Source of the DNA: Anthopleura xanthogrammica
Taxonomy: Eukaryota > Cnidaria > Anthozoa > Actiniaria > Actiniidae
Direction: 5' to 3'
Length of the DNA: 64,000 bases
Assembly: GCA_964019055.1 (NCBI GenBank)
Contig: OZ025216.1
Location: forward strand, 7,236,414-7,300,413
Position 1 is the first letter of the stretch; every line of letters starts with the position of its first letter. Under the pieces are notes generated by a model. It saw only the letters and a program-made list of their open reading frames with translations. It searched no databases and was not told where the DNA came from. Made by a program: the position numbers and the translations under genes. Below, piece after piece: positions 16,348 to 52,200 of this stretch.

Positions 16348-18918
16348 ATGAAAACTGTACTAATGGTTGCAGAAAAGCCTTCCCTTGCCCAGTCTATTGC
16401 TGGCATCTTGTCAAAAGGGAAATATACCTCGAGAAAAGGGTTGAATGGAGCGTGCTCCATTCACGAATACACTGGAATCTTCAAGAATGAGTCAGTGAAA
16501 TTCAAAATGACCTCTGTATGTGGCCACGTTATGAGCTTAGATTTTCATCGCAAGTATAACAACTGGGATGCAGTTGACCCTCTTGAGTTGTTTACAGCTT
16601 CTACCTTGAAAAAAGAGGCAACGGAGAAATTACAAATGCCAAGGTTCTTAGCTCAAGAAGCTAAAGGTGTGGATTACCTTGTATTATGGCTGGATTGTGA
16701 CAAAGAAGGCGAAAACATATGCTTTGAGGTCATAGACTGTGTTACTCCAGTTATGAACAGAAGAAATGGAGAGCAAACGATCTTCAGAGCCAAGTTTTCT
16801 GCTATAACAGACAAAGATATTTCTCTTGCAATGAAAGCCTTGGGGCAACCCAACCGAAATGAATCTTTATCAGTGGATGCCAGGCAAGAAATGGACTTGA
16901 GAATTGGTTGTGCCTTCACAAGATTCCAAACCAAGTACTTTCAAGGAAAATATGGAGATTTGGACAGTGCACTAATCTCCTATGGACCATGCCAAACACC
17001 TACTCTGGGATTCTGTGTTGAAAGACACGACCATATACAGTCATTTAAACCTGAACTTTATTGGGTTATTAAAGTCAAGGTCACACATCCAAGTGGCAAG
17101 GTTTTGTCTTTGGACTGGAATAGAGTCAGGTTATTTGATAAAGATGTTGCACTGATGTTTCAAAACCTGGTTAAAGAATCAAGTGCAGCAAGAGTTGTTG
17201 ATATTTCCAAAGCTCAGAAAACTAAGAGCCGACCTCAAGCTCTTAATACCGTTGAAATGCTTCGTACTGCCTCTTCTGGATTGGGCATTGGTCCACAGCA
17301 TACTATGCAACTTGCAGAGAGGCTTTACACTCAGGGATATATCAGTTACCCCAGAACTGAAACAACTCATTACCCAGAAAGTTTTGACCTTAAAGGAACT
17401 CTTCGTCTTCAAATTTCAAATCCAAACTGGGGTGATTATGTGAGAGAACTGCTAAATGGGCAAATGACCAAACCAAAAAAGGGTCATGATGCTGGTGACC
17501 ATCCGCCAATCACGCCAATGAAAAGTGCAACTGCATCAGAACTTGGTGGGGATCTCTGGAGATTGTATGACTTTATAACAAGGCATTTTATAGGCACATT
17601 GAGTCCAGATACCAAGTATTTGCAGACCACAGTTAAATTTACCATTGGAAAAGAGGAATTTAGTTTCTCAGGGAAATCAGTGATTGATGATGGTTTCACT
17701 TCGGTCATGACCTGGATGGCAGTTGACAATGATGAGCAGTTACCACCATGTTCTAAAAGTGATGTCTATCCAATTTCTGATGTGAAGTTAGAGGAGAGGC
17801 AAACATCACCTCCTGACTTTCTGACAGAGAGTGAACTTATTTCTCTGATGGAGAAGCATGGCATTGGTACCGATGCTAGCATTGCAGTTCATATTAATAA
17901 CATCTGTGAAAGGAACTATGTCCAGGTACAGGGTGGACGCAAACTGGCACCTACTACCCTTGGTATAGTTTTGGTTCATGGCTATCAGAAAATTGATCCA
18001 GAGCTAGTGCTTCCCACAATGAGATCAGGTGTAGAAGCTCAGCTGAATCTTATAGCACATGGCAAAGCTGATTTTCATGCTGTTTTGCATCATGCATTGA
18101 ATATTTTTACTAAGAAATTCATGTTTTTTGTCTCAACAATTGGCAGTATGGATGAACTTTTTGAAGTTTCTTTTACTCCTCTTGCTAAATCTGGGAAGCC
18201 CCTGTCAAGATGTGGGAAATGTAATCGTTACATGAAGTACATTCATGCAAAGCCAAGCCGCCTCCACTGTGCTAATTGTGATGAAACATACAGTCTCCCA
18301 CAAAATGGCAGCATCAAGCTCTACAAAGAGATCAAATGCCCTCTTGATGATTTTGAGCTAGTACTATGGTCAACTGGTGCAAAAGGGAAAAGCACTCCTG
18401 TTTGCCCTTATTGTTACAATCATCCACCTTTTCCAGATATGCGCAAGGGTATGGGTTGCAATCAGTGTTCACATCCAACATGTCAACAATCAGAAGAAGT
18501 CTTAAGTGTGGCAGACTGCACAGAATGTGAAAAGGGAAGTTTGATTTTGGATCCGACTTCAGCTCCAAAATGGCGACTAGCATGTAATAACTGTAATATG
18601 CTTATTCACTTGTGCGAGGGTGCATTTCGCATCTCAGTAGCTGATCAAGTTTGCAGTTGTGGATCAGCACTTCTTAATATTAACTTTAACAAATCCAACA
18701 GTCCTTTGCCTGAGAACAAGACGCAGCACCATGGCTGCATCTTTTGTGATCCATTATTAATTCCTCTTATGAGTATGCAACATGCTGCATCTAAGCACCC
18801 TATGTTTAGGGGAGGAAGAGGAAGGGGAGGAAGAGGAAGAGGGAGGGGTCGGAGACGTGGTCGTGGTAGGAGTGAACCTAAAGACAAAATGTCCCAACTT
18901 GCTGCTTATTTTGTTTGA
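16348..18918 (+). CDS. TOP3B: DNA/RNA topoisomerase 3-beta, single-exon
   Basis: The 856-aa product aligns by recognition along its full length with vertebrate TOP3B (862 aa), from MKTVLMVAEKPSLAQSIA to KDKMSQLAAYFV. The Toprim domain shows Glu9 in EKPS and D116-x-D118-x-E120 in WLDCDKEGEN. The catalytic tyrosine is Y334 in ISYPRTET. Residues from about 613 to 790 hold several Cys-pair zinc modules (CGKC, CPYC, CNQC, CTEC, CNNC, CIFC). Residues about 810-835 form an RGG box, the RNA-binding tail that distinguishes TOP3B from TOP3A. Type IA enzymes pass single strands through a transient 5'-phosphotyrosine break; TOP3B acts on DNA and mRNA, usually with TDRD3. The gene has no introns, whereas its vertebrate orthologue has many. 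All key residues are intact, so it is not a dead retrocopy. Confidence 0.97.
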   Translation: MKTVLMVAEKPSLAQSIAGILSKGKYTSRKGLNGACSIHEYTGIFKNESVKFKMTSVCGHVMSLDFHRKYNNWDAVDPLELFTASTLKKEATEKLQMPRFLAQEAKGVDYLVLWLDCDKEGENICFEVIDCVTPVMNRRNGEQTIFRAKFSAITDKDISLAMKALGQPNRNESLSVDARQEMDLRIGCAFTRFQTKYFQGKYGDLDSALISYGPCQTPTLGFCVERHDHIQSFKPELYWVIKVKVTHPSGKVLSLDWNRVRLFDKDVALMFQNLVKESSAARVVDISKAQKTKSRPQALNTVEMLRTASSGLGIGPQHTMQLAERLYTQGYISYPRTETTHYPESFDLKGTLRLQISNPNWGDYVRELLNGQMTKPKKGHDAGDHPPITPMKSATASELGGDLWRLYDFITRHFIGTLSPDTKYLQTTVKFTIGKEEFSFSGKSVIDDGFTSVMTWMAVDNDEQLPPCSKSDVYPISDVKLEERQTSPPDFLTESELISLMEKHGIGTDASIAVHINNICERNYVQVQGGRKLAPTTLGIVLVHGYQKIDPELVLPTMRSGVEAQLNLIAHGKADFHAVLHHALNIFTKKFMFFVSTIGSMDELFEVSFTPLAKSGKPLSRCGKCNRYMKYIHAKPSRLHCANCDETYSLPQNGSIKLYKEIKCPLDDFELVLWSTGAKGKSTPVCPYCYNHPPFPDMRKGMGCNQCSHPTCQQSEEVLSVADCTECEKGSLILDPTSAPKWRLACNNCNMLIHLCEGAFRISVADQVCSCGSALLNINFNKSNSPLPENKTQHHGCIFCDPLLIPLMSMQHAASKHPMFRGGRGRGGRGRGRGRRRGRGRSEPKDKMSQLAAYFV

Positions 18919-27821: not shown

Positions 27822-41705
<13,884 letters not shown>

Positions 41706-43283: not shown

Positions 43284-46200
43284 TCACGAAAAAGCAAAAT
43301 TCTCACTAGGCTTTCGAGCCATGCTTTCTTCGTATCGTCTTTCGTTAAGGGCTTCTTCAGTTTCTGCTGCTAGTTCATCAGATAGCGAAAGTTTTGGTTC
43401 AACTGACAAAGAAAAAGTTGAAAAATGTTTCATTTCTGAGAGAAGGAGATCATTTAAAACGACAAATCTGAAGACACTAAACAAAATGTTGGATTATCCT
43501 AATATAACTGATCTTGGGGTGATGGGAAAGAAGCAAATTTCCCCACATTCAACTGGCTTAGGTTTGCCCTAATCTTTTTAACGAAAAAGCAACTCCACCT
43601 TGCGGACAACGGTCAGTTTTGAAAAGATCCTGGGGATTTCTTTGGTTTTGAAGTCTATTTTAACCTTTATTCTAAGATTTCTATTCGATTTCAAGTCTAA
43701 CTCCCAGTATCTTGGGTGAGGGAGGGAGCGAGGCAAATTGGTAATCTAACAGAAAAACTAATACAGTTATTCTATGTATATGATATAAATAGTGTTACCT
43801 TTTTGCAACAAAGGATTCGTTGCTAAGGCATTTGCATCATCGTCAATTGCTCTTCCTATGCTCCCCACAGCCTGCCTGACTTCATTCCCTAAATTTAAAA
43901 AAAATGTTTTCGTAATTATGCTTCGTATATAGCGAGACTCCATCCAAGGCGAAAACATCATCTGATCCTTTTGAATCATGGGGCCATAAGCAACTATAAG
44001 CAACGCCTCATTAATAGTCTAGGAGCTGGACCCCAAAACCAGACGTTTTGCACAACCCACCCTACAGAAAAGGTTTGACACTTGATTCTTATAGAACAAT
44101 ACTTGCTCTTTAACATGAGATACTTTGTACACTCAAAATGTGGTATAGGTTCCGAGATATAGGGGATTCTTTGCCTCGATTTGGTGTTCAGCATGATTGC
44201 GAGGCTAATTACATTAAATGCTTATTGAATGGTCTGTTCTTAACCAAATCTCACAAAAATGGTCTCAAATGAAAGAGCTCATTAAGGGCTTTTCAAAAAT
44301 GTAAGAGTTAATGTTTATGGTCTCACGTGACAAGTCACGTGACCTCAAAAAGAGGAAAATCAACGTTTTTTAGCCACTATGATCAAATATCGTTTGCTTT
44401 AAAAACTACGGAAACACATCATTCCATCAAAAAACTATTTCTATGTGTTAACCAGGTCTTGATCATTACGTTAAGACTAAAAAAGCTAAAGATTCGAGTT
44501 AAAAAATGTCAAAAATATCGAAAATGAAGGAGCCTCTCAAGTTTTTTTTGAGGTCAGCATGAAAACGAGGCTAAATCATAAATACGGTTTAAGCATGCCA
44601 TATATTCACCGAAATGCACTAAAAACTTACTCAAGGCAACACACTTGCTCAGCCACCCTGTAAGGATGGTTAGCTTCAAGTCACGTGATCTCTAACATGA
44701 TAACGAGGCAAATGTTCTTCTCAATAAAAAGCTGAGTTAGACTTTAAAGACTGTGAGTTCTCCTTTTTTTCTTTTTCAATATAAACATACTGATAACATT
44801 TACTCGCTCCCTCTCAGTGAATTGTATAGGAGACATAATAACCACAATAAAGTGCACTTTTTAAGCCCTTCATGAATTGCAGAATGAGTAAGACTGGAAC
44901 CAAGTGCCCAAGTAACCAGGCTTTTTTCACTGGCAGCCATATTGTATTCATTAGTTCCAGGATTCTATTTTGTGGAGGTTGATTTATTCAAATAGTGCAA
45001 CAGTATCAAATGAAAAAAGATATAATAATGTTTTAAGGTAAGTTCTCATTGATATTATATGCAATAAAGGTCTTTCGGAGACCAATAACATATCTAATAT
45101 GACTGTAAGTATCTCATAATATGATTCAGCAAGTTCTCAGTGTTTTTAGTTTTGGTACAGTAAATTTTTTTTTTAAATATTCAAAGTCTTAGCTACTTTT
45201 TGAAGCATTAAAAAAGTATCGGATTTATGGATATATAAATGTTGTGTATGGATATTAATATTATGTCTATACACTGTACGTTTAATAAATTCCAACCGAC
45301 TACATGTATAGTTTGAATTATTTGTAGTATGAGTCTTGTCTTACTTGTTTCGGTTCTCTAAGCATTTTTAATTTTGTTAAGTCTTATATGGGATATTTTC
45401 TTTTATAGAATGCATTTGTCATGGATGAAAATGTTGGGTTCAATTTACTTCCCGCCAAACGGAAAAAGCTGACTAATTATGAACAATGCATAATTTGTCA
45501 AAGTATTAACAAGGGTGCTTGTTTAAGAAAAGCACAGGTGCCATCGATTGAAAAGTTGATTTATGCTGCACACGTTCGCAAAGATGAATGTTTTGAGCGT
45601 TTACATGTTGATTTTGGAAATCTTACATCTAGAGATGTTTTGTGGCATAATTCATGTTATGCATCCTACACTAGTGAACGTAATTTGCATAGCCTATCCA
45701 CAGTTTCTGGTGAAGTGAATTCAAGATCTGATCAAGGAAAGCGCATATCTTTTGACTGGACGAAGTGTCTCTTTTGTAGAAATGCCTCTCATAAAAAGGA
45801 TTTTAAGCTAATAAATATTACGACGTTTGAAGCGTGCAATAGTATCAACGTTGCTGCTGAGGCTAGATGCGACGAAGAACTACTCCTTCTATTACGAAGT
45901 CATGATCTAATTGCTAGCGAAGGCAAGTACCATAAGTCTTGCCATGCCTCATACGTGAGTAAGGCAAACATCAAATCCCGATGCTTAGATGAGAAGTCTG
46001 TTAACGGATACGATGAGGCATTTGCCGAGTTCCTTAGTATAATACAACCGGAAATCGTAAGAGGAAAAGCTTACGATATGAATTGTCTACTACAATTATA
46101 CAAGGACATGTTAATTAAGAGAGATATTAATGCCGATAGCTACACCAGGCAAAAGCTGAAATTACGTTTACAGTCAATCTTTAAAGACGATCTTGTGTTT

Positions 46201-49200
46201 CACCAAACACATGCAAGCACAAAACCAGAAATTGTTTACTCTAGTTCAATATCACTTCTTGATGTTATCAACACAGCAGCAATAACATCACAGAACAAAA
46301 CAGATCAGAATGAATCAGTAAGGGATGAGCCAAACGAGGCAATGAAGGCAATCTATGACGCAGCAGCCATTATCAGAAGTGACATATCCAAATGTAAGGG
46401 AATTAAAATCGATCCCTTATCTGTTGAAGATTTGCATTTGCAGAAAGCGAGATCACTTATCCCTGATCACCTGTATTGGTTGTTGAGGTACATGGTAACC
46501 TCCGAGGAGTATGTTACTAGTACGAGCCCTAGATGCTCAAATGTTTCACATGAAAGGAAAATCATAATGATTGGCCAAGACGTCATACACGCTGTAAGTA
46601 ATGCAAGAGTGAAGCTCCCAAAGCATGTAGGTTTGGGGATAACTATCAAACATCTCACAAGGTCTAAGCAGCTTATAACTCTGCTCAATCGAATGGGCCA
46701 TTGTTGTTCATATGAACAGACCGAGATAGTAGAAACAGCCCTCGCAAATGAAATTATCGCAAGGTCTGAATTGAATGGAGGTCTAATCATTCCATCAAAC
46801 ATATCACCCGGTATGTTTGTTCACATGGCAGCAGATAACAATGATTTCAGCGAAGAAACGATTGATGGGAAGAACACTACCCATGCAACAACCCTAGTTG
46901 CTTTTCAGAGAAAACAATATGGGCCAATGCCAGAAAGAAATGTTTATCACTCACAGAAGAGAAGGTCTTTAGATTCCTCAAGACCTATAGTGACCATAGA
47001 TGATATCAATGTAGGAGGGAGACGTCCATCCGTTACAAATTACATCGGTAAGATAAAGAACGCACATTGGCTACAATCAAATGAGCAGTTCCTTTCCGCT
47101 TGTCTGGATGACTTAGTGTGGCTTCTTCTACGCTTATGCTCAGACACTCTGTTTGCAGTAAATTATCGACCAGTTGTTGATCAGAAGATTCCAGGGTGGA
47201 GTGGATTTCAGTCACTCAAATTCTCTGACACCTCACCACCTTCTACCATTGGTTACTGTCCTATGATACAAGCAAATGCAAATGAATACAGCACAATCTA
47301 CAAAGTTATGAAGCTCTCCTTAGAAATGGCAAATGCACTGGGACAGTCCGATTCAGTAGTTACTTTTGACTTAGCAATTTACATCAAGGCAAAAGAGCTT
47401 CAGATAAGATACCCAGATGAATTCAAGAATGTCGTAGTTCGCTTAGGAGGATTTCACATAGCTTTAAACTATCTTGCACTTCTCGGAAAGATGTATTCAA
47501 ACTCTGATTTGGAAGATCTTCTTATCGATTCTGGAGTGTATGCCCCTGGAACTACCACTGCACTAATGGCAGGAAAGTCATACAATCGTGGAGTACGAGC
47601 CCACAAGCTTTGTTTCGAGGCCCTGTTTCGACTACTATGGAAAGCGTTTGCAAGTTGGCTGGAAGAAAACGCGCCGGACTTGGATGAAAGCTCAAAGAGA
47701 ACAATCCTGGAGTTACTCAAGAAATGCCAACATTCCGACAATAAGGTGGAACATCTTAAAGAAAACTGGCAGCCCTTAAGAGATGGTTTGAGTACACTCT
47801 TATTTCTTTTCAGAGATTTTGAAAATGAAAGAAAGGCCAAATCAAAGCTTTTCGCTTTCTGGAGCGAATATATATCAATGGTTACAATACTGCTGCAGTT
47901 CATCAAAGCTGAGCGAACTGGCAATTGGAATTTACACTTGTCGTCCACCGCTGAGATGCTACCATATTTCTACGCTATGGATAGAGTTAATTATTCAAGG
48001 TGGCTCCCTGTATACCTAGCAGACATGCACTCGCTACAGGAACACCACCCAGAAGTGCATTCGGAGTTCAAAGCTGGTAACCATAGCGTAAGTCGCTCAC
48101 AACAACCCTTTGGTCAAGTTTGGTCAGATATGGCCCTTGAACAGTCGATCAACTGCGACTCTAAATCAAAAGGAGGTCTGGTTGGCATGACCAAAAAGGA
48201 GGATGCAGTAGAACGCTGGTTTTTGACGAGTCACGAACGTGCAGCCATCACAAGATCACTTAAAGAAATGTGCGGCGTAGAGAATGACAGGATAGGCACA
48301 CACAAGGAAGCGAGCATTACGCGTATTCAGCGAGATGAAAGGGATGTCAAGAGCCTTCTCTCGCGTTTTACAACAGATTTAATGAATAACCCATTCAGTG
48401 TAGCTGAAGACGAGAACAGTACTGACACTGCACTTAGTAATATTGCTACTGGAGTAGTTCTACCCGAAACAGTTGCAGAGCGCTTGGTAAATGCATCTGA
48501 GATCGGAAGTAGTAGTATGCACAACTTCATCAATTCAAGGCTTGATACAAATAAAGTTAGTTTTTGGGCTCCTCTTACGAAGCTGAAGATTGAGACCTTT
48601 GGTACTACTAGGCGGAAGATATCTCTGAAAGGCACTCGTGAAAAAGTCATCACTGTGAATGCTGACAGACAGCTGTTTGGACGACTACTGGTCGTGGCGA
48701 AAACGAGAGAGATCAACATGAAAGAGATCCTAAGCTACGAATTGTGCTGTGTTCCGATTTCTCTTGCACATCCAGATGGGACTATGCGAAAGACAGCAAA
48801 AAGCACATTGATGCCGATTTTGGAGAAGAACATCAACTCTGAGCCCAGATTACCTCTATCAGAAATGCCAACAGCTGTTATCATTGACGCCATGGCATTG
48901 ATTCAAATGGTCAAGTCAGCAGGAGCAGCAACGTTTGGAGAGATGGCTGATAAATACTTCGACATTATAACTCGGGTATTGAGCCAGAACAACTGTAGCC
49001 GGGTAGACCTCGTATTTGACCAGTACCGTCCCCTGTCCATCAAAGCAGAAGAACGCCGACAAAGAGGAGAGACATCTTCCATGCAGATTAAGATCCACAA
49101 TCAGAATACGCCAGTTCCGAGGCAATGGGGCAAATTCATATCCAATCCGAGGAATAAGCAGAATTTGGCAATTTTTTTATGCGAGTCTCTAAGCATCCTT

Positions 49201-52200
49201 TCAGAGCTGCAATTACATCAACACAAGAATGTTATTCTAGCAGGAGGCTTCCAAGATGGTAAAGAGACGGTAATGTGCAGCAGGGGATTCTCATCCAGCA
49301 TTCCATCCTTGTTATCAGATCAGGAAGAAGCAGATACAAGGCTTGTATTGCATGCCAAACATGCCTCGATCACCCATCAGAGAATTGTTATTCAGTCACC
49401 AGACACAGATGTGGCGGTGTTATGTGTTGCTCATTTCCAGAGTGTCCAATGTCAAGAGCTGTGGTTCAAAACAGGAGTCAAAGATAAAGCAAGATACATC
49501 CCAATTCACTCCTTACACTCCTCTCTAGGTCCCCTGCTCTCCAAGGCCCTGCCAGCATTTCATGCACTGACAGGTTGCGACACGACAAGTGGCTTTTCAG
49601 GTATCGGCAAGAAGAAGGCTTGGAAGGTATTTGTAAACGATGCTCAAGTTCAACAGCAACTGGCCAACCTAGGTGAAGAGCCCCTTCTTCAAGCAACTCA
49701 ACTCAAGTCTTGTGAGGCATTCGTATGTTCTCTTTACACTACTGCTAGAAGATTTGACAAGGCTGACGATGCTCGGTATTTCCTTTTCTGTCAAAGGAAC
49801 AAGAAAAGCGAAGATCTGCCTCCCACATCTGAAAGCTTAACCCATCACATTAAAAGGGCCAACTTCCAGGCACATATTTGGAATAAAGCCCTCAGTCCGA
49901 TGCAGAACCTCCCATCACCAGAAGGATTTGGATGGAAATTGGAAGATGATCAGCTTCTACCAGTCCTTATGACGAAGAGTCCCGCACCAGAAGGAATTGC
50001 AGAGTTGACAACTTGTGGCTGCAAGAAGTCAGAATGTTTGAGAAATTGCTCATGTAAAGCAAATGGTCTTCCTTGTACAGAAGCATGCAAGTGCATGGCT
50101 GATGAAAGCTGTTCAAACCCTATGAAGGATGTCGTCGACTCTAGTGATTCAGAAGGTGAAGATGAAACTGATGACAGTCTTGATGATTAAAAATAACTTG
50201 TTAGACTTTAAGATGAAGATGAAGATGTACAGAACTGTTTTTTAAACCTTTATTTTATTGAGAAGAACATTTGCCTCGTTATCATGTTAGAGATCACGTG
50301 ACTTGAAGCTAACCATCCTTACAGGGTGGCTGAGCAAGTGTGTTGCCTTGAGTAAGTTTTTAGTGCATTTCGGTGAATATATGGCATGCTTAAACCGTAT
50401 TTATGATTTAGCCTCGTTTTCATGCTGACCTCAAAAAAAACTTGAGAGGCTCCTTCATTTTCGATATTTTTGACATTTTTTAACTCGAATCTTTAGCTTT
50501 TTTAGTCTTAACGTAATGATCAAGACCTGGTTAACACATAGAAATAGTTTTTTGATGGAATGATGTGTTTCCGTAGTTTTTAAAGCAAACGATATTTGAT
50601 CATAGTGGCTAAAAAACGTTGATTTTCCTCTTTTTGAGGTCACGTGACTTGTCACGTGAGACCATAAACATTAACTCTTACATTTTTGAAAAGCCCTTAA
50701 TGAGCTCTTTCATTTGAGACCATTTTTGTGAGATTTGGTTAAGAACAGACCATTCAATAAGCATTTAATGTAATTAGCCTCGCAATCATGCTGAACACCA
50801 AATCGAGGCAAAGAATCCCCTATATCTCGGAACCTATACCACATTTTGAGTGTACAAAGTATCTCATGTTAAAGAGCAAGTATTGTTCTATAAGAATCAA
50901 GTGTCAAACCTTTTCTGTAGGATGGGTTGTGCAAAACGTCTGGTTTTGGTGTCTAGCTCCTAGACTATAAGGCGGGCTTGTGCAATTCTGGTCATAGGGT
51001 ACGTTGAGTTTGTAAAGGCCAAGAATCCCTCACTATATTGTGAGGTTAATGTCCAGATATTGACCTGCTACTAACGTATATCTGGTTATTAATTGCTTCC
51101 GCGTTAGCCCAGTGTACTCTCTTCCAGCGGTCTTATTTAAAATGATTTATTAAGGTGGGTACTAATCCTACTTTTAGTGGCCCGGGGTTGGGATCACGGG
51201 TCTAGAATCCTTTCCCTACCAACCCTAGTCCTCAAACACATGTATTCAATAATATATTTTGTTGACAATTGTGACATACATACCCAAGGTGTTTTGAGAT
51301 AATAGATTAGATGACCCATATGAATGAGATTGATCCTCATAATTATATCCATAAAAACCTGCAAAACACAACGTTTTTAGAGCAATAAGCAAGCCGAGCA
51401 AAACTCTCTCCTCTCCCCCAAAAAAGGCTTTTTGTTCATGCAAGCAAAGGAAACTTAAGTGTATAGCGGTGTATGTATATCTGCACATGATTAGAACACC
51501 AACGAGTACCATAAAGATCTCTCATCAACTATTCGTACAATGATCATTACCTGGAGTGGGTTTTTGAAAGCTTTTGTTTTCAAAATCATCATCATCATCA
51601 TCAGGATTAACAGACGAATCTATTCACACATTTTGAAACAGAAATGATAAGAATATATATAACACAAGGAAGAGTGTTGCATTCAAACATCGACAAGTTG
51701 ATTGGAGAAACTGAGGCCTAGTCAGTTTTTTTTAAACAAATTTTGAGATGTTTGAATAGAAAGATTAAGGGACCGGTCATCACGGGGGGAAGAGTGGGGA
51801 AGGGGGGATTTACGGGGAATCACATGCATCGTTTTTAGTAGCAACCAATAGAAGGGGGGGGGGGGGGGGGTCATTAAAAATATGTTTTTGGTTGAAATCG
51901 CGAAATTTTAAGTGCCGCAAAAAATTCATGTGATAAGGTGGAAGTTGACCAAATTCATGACTTCTGGGATCGGGAAAAAGGTGGGAGGTCGTGCGTTTCT
52001 TTTCGTCTCTACTTCTAGCTGTATTTTCTATTATCAGTATGATAGACTAGAGCAACCTTGCCTTAAACGTTTTCAAATTTATATCTTTTGTTCTTGCAAA
52101 AGTATGAAATATAAATGCGGTTTCAACAGCGACTTTTTTATGGCTTTATAAACAGAATACTTTGGGGGTTTTAAGCTAATAAAGCTGGTTATGTTAGATT

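Follow-up and report, generated by a model that had tools for sequence, protein, structure and literature searches.

We describe a 6953-bp DNA transposon in Anthopleura xanthogrammica, located at positions 44015-50967 of a 64,000-nucleotide stretch (hereafter the window; assembly GCA_964019055.1, contig OZ025216.1, positions 7,236,414 to 7,300,413). The element generates 3-bp target-site duplications (TSDs), and its single protein appears to combine a predicted DDE core, which would do the cutting and joining, with a nuclease of predicted FEN1/EXO1 type, whose role would be 5'-strand processing at the ends of the element. AcademX is the most likely home for such an element, and we put the probability of this reading as a whole at roughly two in three.

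Ends, copies, and unoccupied sites of the element

The element is bounded by terminal inverted repeats (TIRs) and TSDs, and its middle is occupied by one open reading frame (ORF).

44012..44014, no strand: left TSD copy, TAA (flanking letters)
44015..44729, + strand: left TIR, 715 bp, tip TAGTCTAGGAGCT (arm comparison; both arms located at 7/7 copies)
44192..44712, + strand: 17-bp motif CATGANNNCGAGGCWAA in three direct copies (44192-44208, 44558-44574, 44696-44712), with mirror-image counterparts in the right arm
45421..50190, + strand: single ORF, 1589 aa
50253..50967, - strand: right TIR, 715 bp (arm comparison; located at 7/7 copies)
50968..50970, no strand: right TSD copy, TAA (flanking letters)

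A preliminary description of this DNA had proposed long TIRs, a TAA duplication, and one 1589-aa ORF, and all three were borne out. The arms of the window copy differ by three mismatches, at arm positions 14, 18, and 46, near the tip, and within each of the copies L001 to L006 the arms differ from one another only at these positions (first 714 positions compared), apart from an additional 1-base gap in L006. In L005, the letter at position 46 is identical in the left and right arms, which hints at arm-to-arm conversion. Allowing up to two mismatches, the 17-bp motif has 9 matches in the window, 8 of them inside the two arms, with 0.46 expected; the shorter CGAGGCWAA is not present in L008, a 53%-identical relative. 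These motifs are possible transposase-binding sites.

We searched the 290-Mb genome (125 contigs), for which copy counts are lower bounds. Including the window copy, at least six genomic copies cover residues 1-1589 with no stop, and a further one has a match beginning at residue 195 and one stop. Four of the six full copies are identical across 6953 bp, and each of the other two shows 10 differences from them among the aligned positions. Both ends were located for all seven copies, every one of which carries its own perfect 3-bp duplication (7/7).

The expectation that the ORF should always lie between TIRs held for 7/7 copies; for relatives the support is partial, as the outer ends of the 50%- and 39%-identical ones were looked for and not recovered. 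Two TIR arms of ~745 bp, 99.6% alike, surround the L008 locus, one of them without its outer tip, and one TIR tip was found for each of L020, L022, and L023. Three more end pairs from relatives were compared, none with a matching triplet (0/3). The triplets flanking L050/L051 are att/tta, and those of a 128-bp miniature element made up of two tips of the window element's TIR (G000:C6:12321368-12321495; L052, L059) are aat/tta, which do not match.

The preliminary description had also anticipated unoccupied sites with a single triplet. To look for these, we fused the two flanks of each of the seven copies, minus one triplet, and searched for the products in the genome; 40 of 533 candidates were scored, so site counts are lower bounds. 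We found that three of the seven copies sit in repeats with unoccupied paralogous sites, with at least 12 junction-spanning places for the C2 copy, at least 4 for C19, and at least 10 for C20. When three sites per copy were aligned, all nine crossed the junction with the triplet present once. These sites vary in length: those of C2 have 5 extra bases ~6 bases right of the junction, within a short direct repeat; a T run beside the junction varies at C19, where one site is short by a T and one has 2 additional bases; and those of C20 have 5 extra bases distant from the junction. We read these differences as host-repeat variants, although that of C2 may instead reflect a small deletion at insertion. 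The C20 copy (L036/L037) is itself inserted in a repeated sequence that is palindromic, within one of its two arms, as seen from its flank letters and inverted matches. The window's own copy had no unoccupied site among the 40 of 533 candidates scored. Given the near-perfect 715-bp arms that enclose the ORF, the separate TSD in 7/7 copies, and the single-triplet unoccupied sites for 3/7, the element is far beyond what chance would produce.

Two predicted catalytic domains in one protein

46813..48225, + strand: residues 465-935, predicted DDE transposase core with an RNase H-like fold (homologues, structure model, conservation)
46834-46836, 47368-47370, and 48139-48141, + strand: likely triad D472, D650, and E907
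47494..48123, + strand: predicted insertion domain, helical throughout, that separates strand 5 from the E-bearing helix (secondary structure, model)
48796..49920, + strand: residues 1126-1500, predicted nuclease of the FEN1/EXO1/XPG type, including an H2TH motif (homologues, structure model)
45475..45975, + strand: N-terminal Cys/His pairs C23/C26...H76/C79 and C116/C119...H171/C174
50011..50118, + strand: Tesmin/TSO1-like CXC cysteine-rich motif, residues 1531-1566

The preliminary description saw no DDE signature and offered two interpretations, namely, that a FEN-fold nuclease drives transposition or that it is the processing partner of an enzyme hidden in the unassigned middle region. It is the second that our analysis favors. 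Homologues and a structure model reveal a DDE-type core in the middle region; the model is confidently RNase H-like, and its top structural matches are DDE transposases. In an 85-row alignment, 76 rows are ungapped at D472, D650, and E907, the likely triad of this predicted fold, and 74 of these retain all three residues; a conserved H679 lies close to the position of the [C/D]xxH motif. Four of six scanned relatives score above the Pfam cut-off for DUF6589 in the DDE region and two slightly below it, these six having been chosen because they already bore the DUF6589 label; a Pfam scan gave no DUF6589 match in the window ORF. DUF6589 was considered as a possible link to AcademH; with residues 440-960 of the relative P0059 as a query, we recovered 12 proteins (P0059 included), none with a helicase domain listed. 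Our literature search on DUF6589/PF20231 returned nothing relevant.

The FEN-type domain itself was upheld. The motifs IIDAM (from residue 1154), VFD (1198-1200), EERRQR, EEAD, SPDTD, GCDTTSGF, and GIGKKKAW are all present in that order, and the structure model and fold search give a clear FEN/EXO1 fold with H2TH, as in the FEN1/XPG family. Seven acids (D1156, D1200, E1303, D1305, D1328, D1330, and D1387), matched to FEN1 residues by order and spacing, are complete in 78/78 ungapped rows (alignment of 85 rows). Neither of the Pfam profiles XPG_N and XPG_I was among the hits to this protein with E of 1 or less. A search with the FEN domain alone gave 300 matches, and the 120 listed look, from their names and domain listing, like pieces of the same protein family.

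Such strict conservation and so clear a fold might suggest that the FEN-fold nuclease alone drives transposition, with the middle region serving as a non-catalytic scaffold. However, this would leave the RNase H-like model of that region and its retained triad unexplained, and the regular 3-bp TSD requires a staggered strand transfer, which is typical of DDE enzymes. FEN enzymes hydrolyze and are not known to carry out strand transfer. We therefore regard this explanation as extremely improbable, and FEN as the sole catalyst was rejected once the structure model placed a DDE core in the middle region.

Outside the two catalytic domains, the N-terminal Cys/His pairs are likely zinc-binding, as their spacing suggests. 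The CXC motif is under the Pfam cut-off in the window ORF and over it in the relative P0078; TCR was the sole Pfam hit with E no higher than 1, and that scan found no helicase domain.

Of 50 aligned proteins, whose identities go as low as 28%, 46 retain the DDE site and the FEN site complete, and the aligned set includes proteins named as coming from cnidarians, echinoderms, lancelets, fish, and insects. A scan of other genomes' contigs added L069 and L070, both from records labelled bacterial; these, along with P0057 and P0107 in similarly labelled records, are presumably host contamination, and L069 has no long inverted repeats inside its 6.5-kb contig. One scan of viral contigs found no family member. 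Since being fused is not in itself proof of acting in the same reaction, the nuclease could be a passenger with another use outside transposition, such as degrading competing DNA or host interference. The persistence of both sites from cnidarians to insects makes this very unlikely, as does the published link between nuclease or helicase and distinct TSD lengths in AcademX and AcademH (PMC10045372).

Classification and other features of the window

The AcademX nuclease is an XPG-type domain. In the literature, Academ is placed among the DDD/E superfamilies (PMC9587614), and AcademX is described as having 3- or 4-bp TSDs and a nuclease in place of the helicase of AcademH, the other Academ lineage, which has 9- or 10-bp TSDs (PMC10045372). 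Our element resembles AcademX in its 3-bp TSD (7/7 two-ended copies), its predicted FEN/EXO1-fold nuclease, and a DDD/E transposase recognized by structure prediction and conservation only, whereas it differs from AcademH in its TSD and in having no helicase domain in the Pfam scan. We conclude that, judged by the features described for that lineage, it likely belongs to AcademX. Its novelty is therefore modest.

The predicted catalytic-core fold and the position of the helical insertion are shared with P element, Hermes (hAT), and RAG1/Transib in their published layouts. However, P element and hAT TSDs are 8 bp, unlike the 3 bp found here, those of Transib are 5 bp, and none of these systems has a FEN domain. 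The nuclease shares its predicted fold, seven-acid order, and H2TH motif with EXO1/FEN1/XPG/GEN1, but it is fused to a transposase and too diverged for the Pfam XPG models. KolobokP is another eukaryotic transposon that pairs a DDD/E transposase with a second nuclease, in its case a homing endonuclease of the His-Me finger type (PMC9587614). A mutation-accumulation study of Daphnia magna records a single gain of an element labelled Academ-1 (PMC8594854), so Academ-labelled elements are mobile today.

Elsewhere in the window, a single 856-aa ORF at 16348-18918 resembles DNA topoisomerase III beta by eye, and a long tandem repeat at 30281-31643, with several frames open, reads (SFVR)n.

A proposed division of labor between the two nucleases

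We propose that the long TIRs would be bound by the Cys/His motifs at the N terminus and by the CXC motif at the C terminus, after which the DDE core would nick each element end and transfer the 3' ends to target positions separated by 3 bp. DDE strand transfer is suggested by the regular 3-bp duplication together with the conserved TIRs and the RNase H-like core. The FEN-like domain would next cut or trim the nontransferred 5' strand. This would either release the element from its donor site or, ahead of fill-in, clear away the 5' flaps that border the 3-nt gaps. Given that the FEN site is conserved as strictly as the DDE site, it probably takes part, and, in view of the substrates that FEN enzymes cut, its likeliest target is the 5' strand, whether at the element's termini or in the gaps left after integration.

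Hairpin opening or late flap removal by the FEN domain are good alternatives. It is somewhat unlikely that, in the manner of hAT or RAG1, both strands are cut by the DDE core, leaving the FEN-like domain only postintegration gap repair or Artemis-like opening of donor hairpins, since the host already supplies FEN1 and hairpin openers, and strict conservation of the fused copy suggests that the step is not left to the host. A more specific form of our proposed division of labor, which we hold tentatively and consider unlikely, is two-nuclease excision, in which the DDE core would cut and join the 3' strands and the FEN-fold nuclease would cut the 5' strands, a convergent eukaryotic counterpart of bacterial TnsA/TnsB.

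The components of AcademX elements have been described in print. Our literature search found no paper on how the AcademX nuclease participates in transposition and none containing Academ, transposon, and XPG together as whole words, which is a weak negative because key papers lay outside its coverage. The value of the window element lies in its clear two-active-site anatomy and in a near-identical copy set for testing. Since the ORF is intact, the copies are near-identical, the ends are defined, and unoccupied sites exist for sister copies, the role of the fused flap nuclease is directly testable, and the structure models pinpoint the residues through which the DDE and FEN sites can be separated. 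If true, two-nuclease excision would be the first instance of cut-and-paste transposition that relies on a flap endonuclease.
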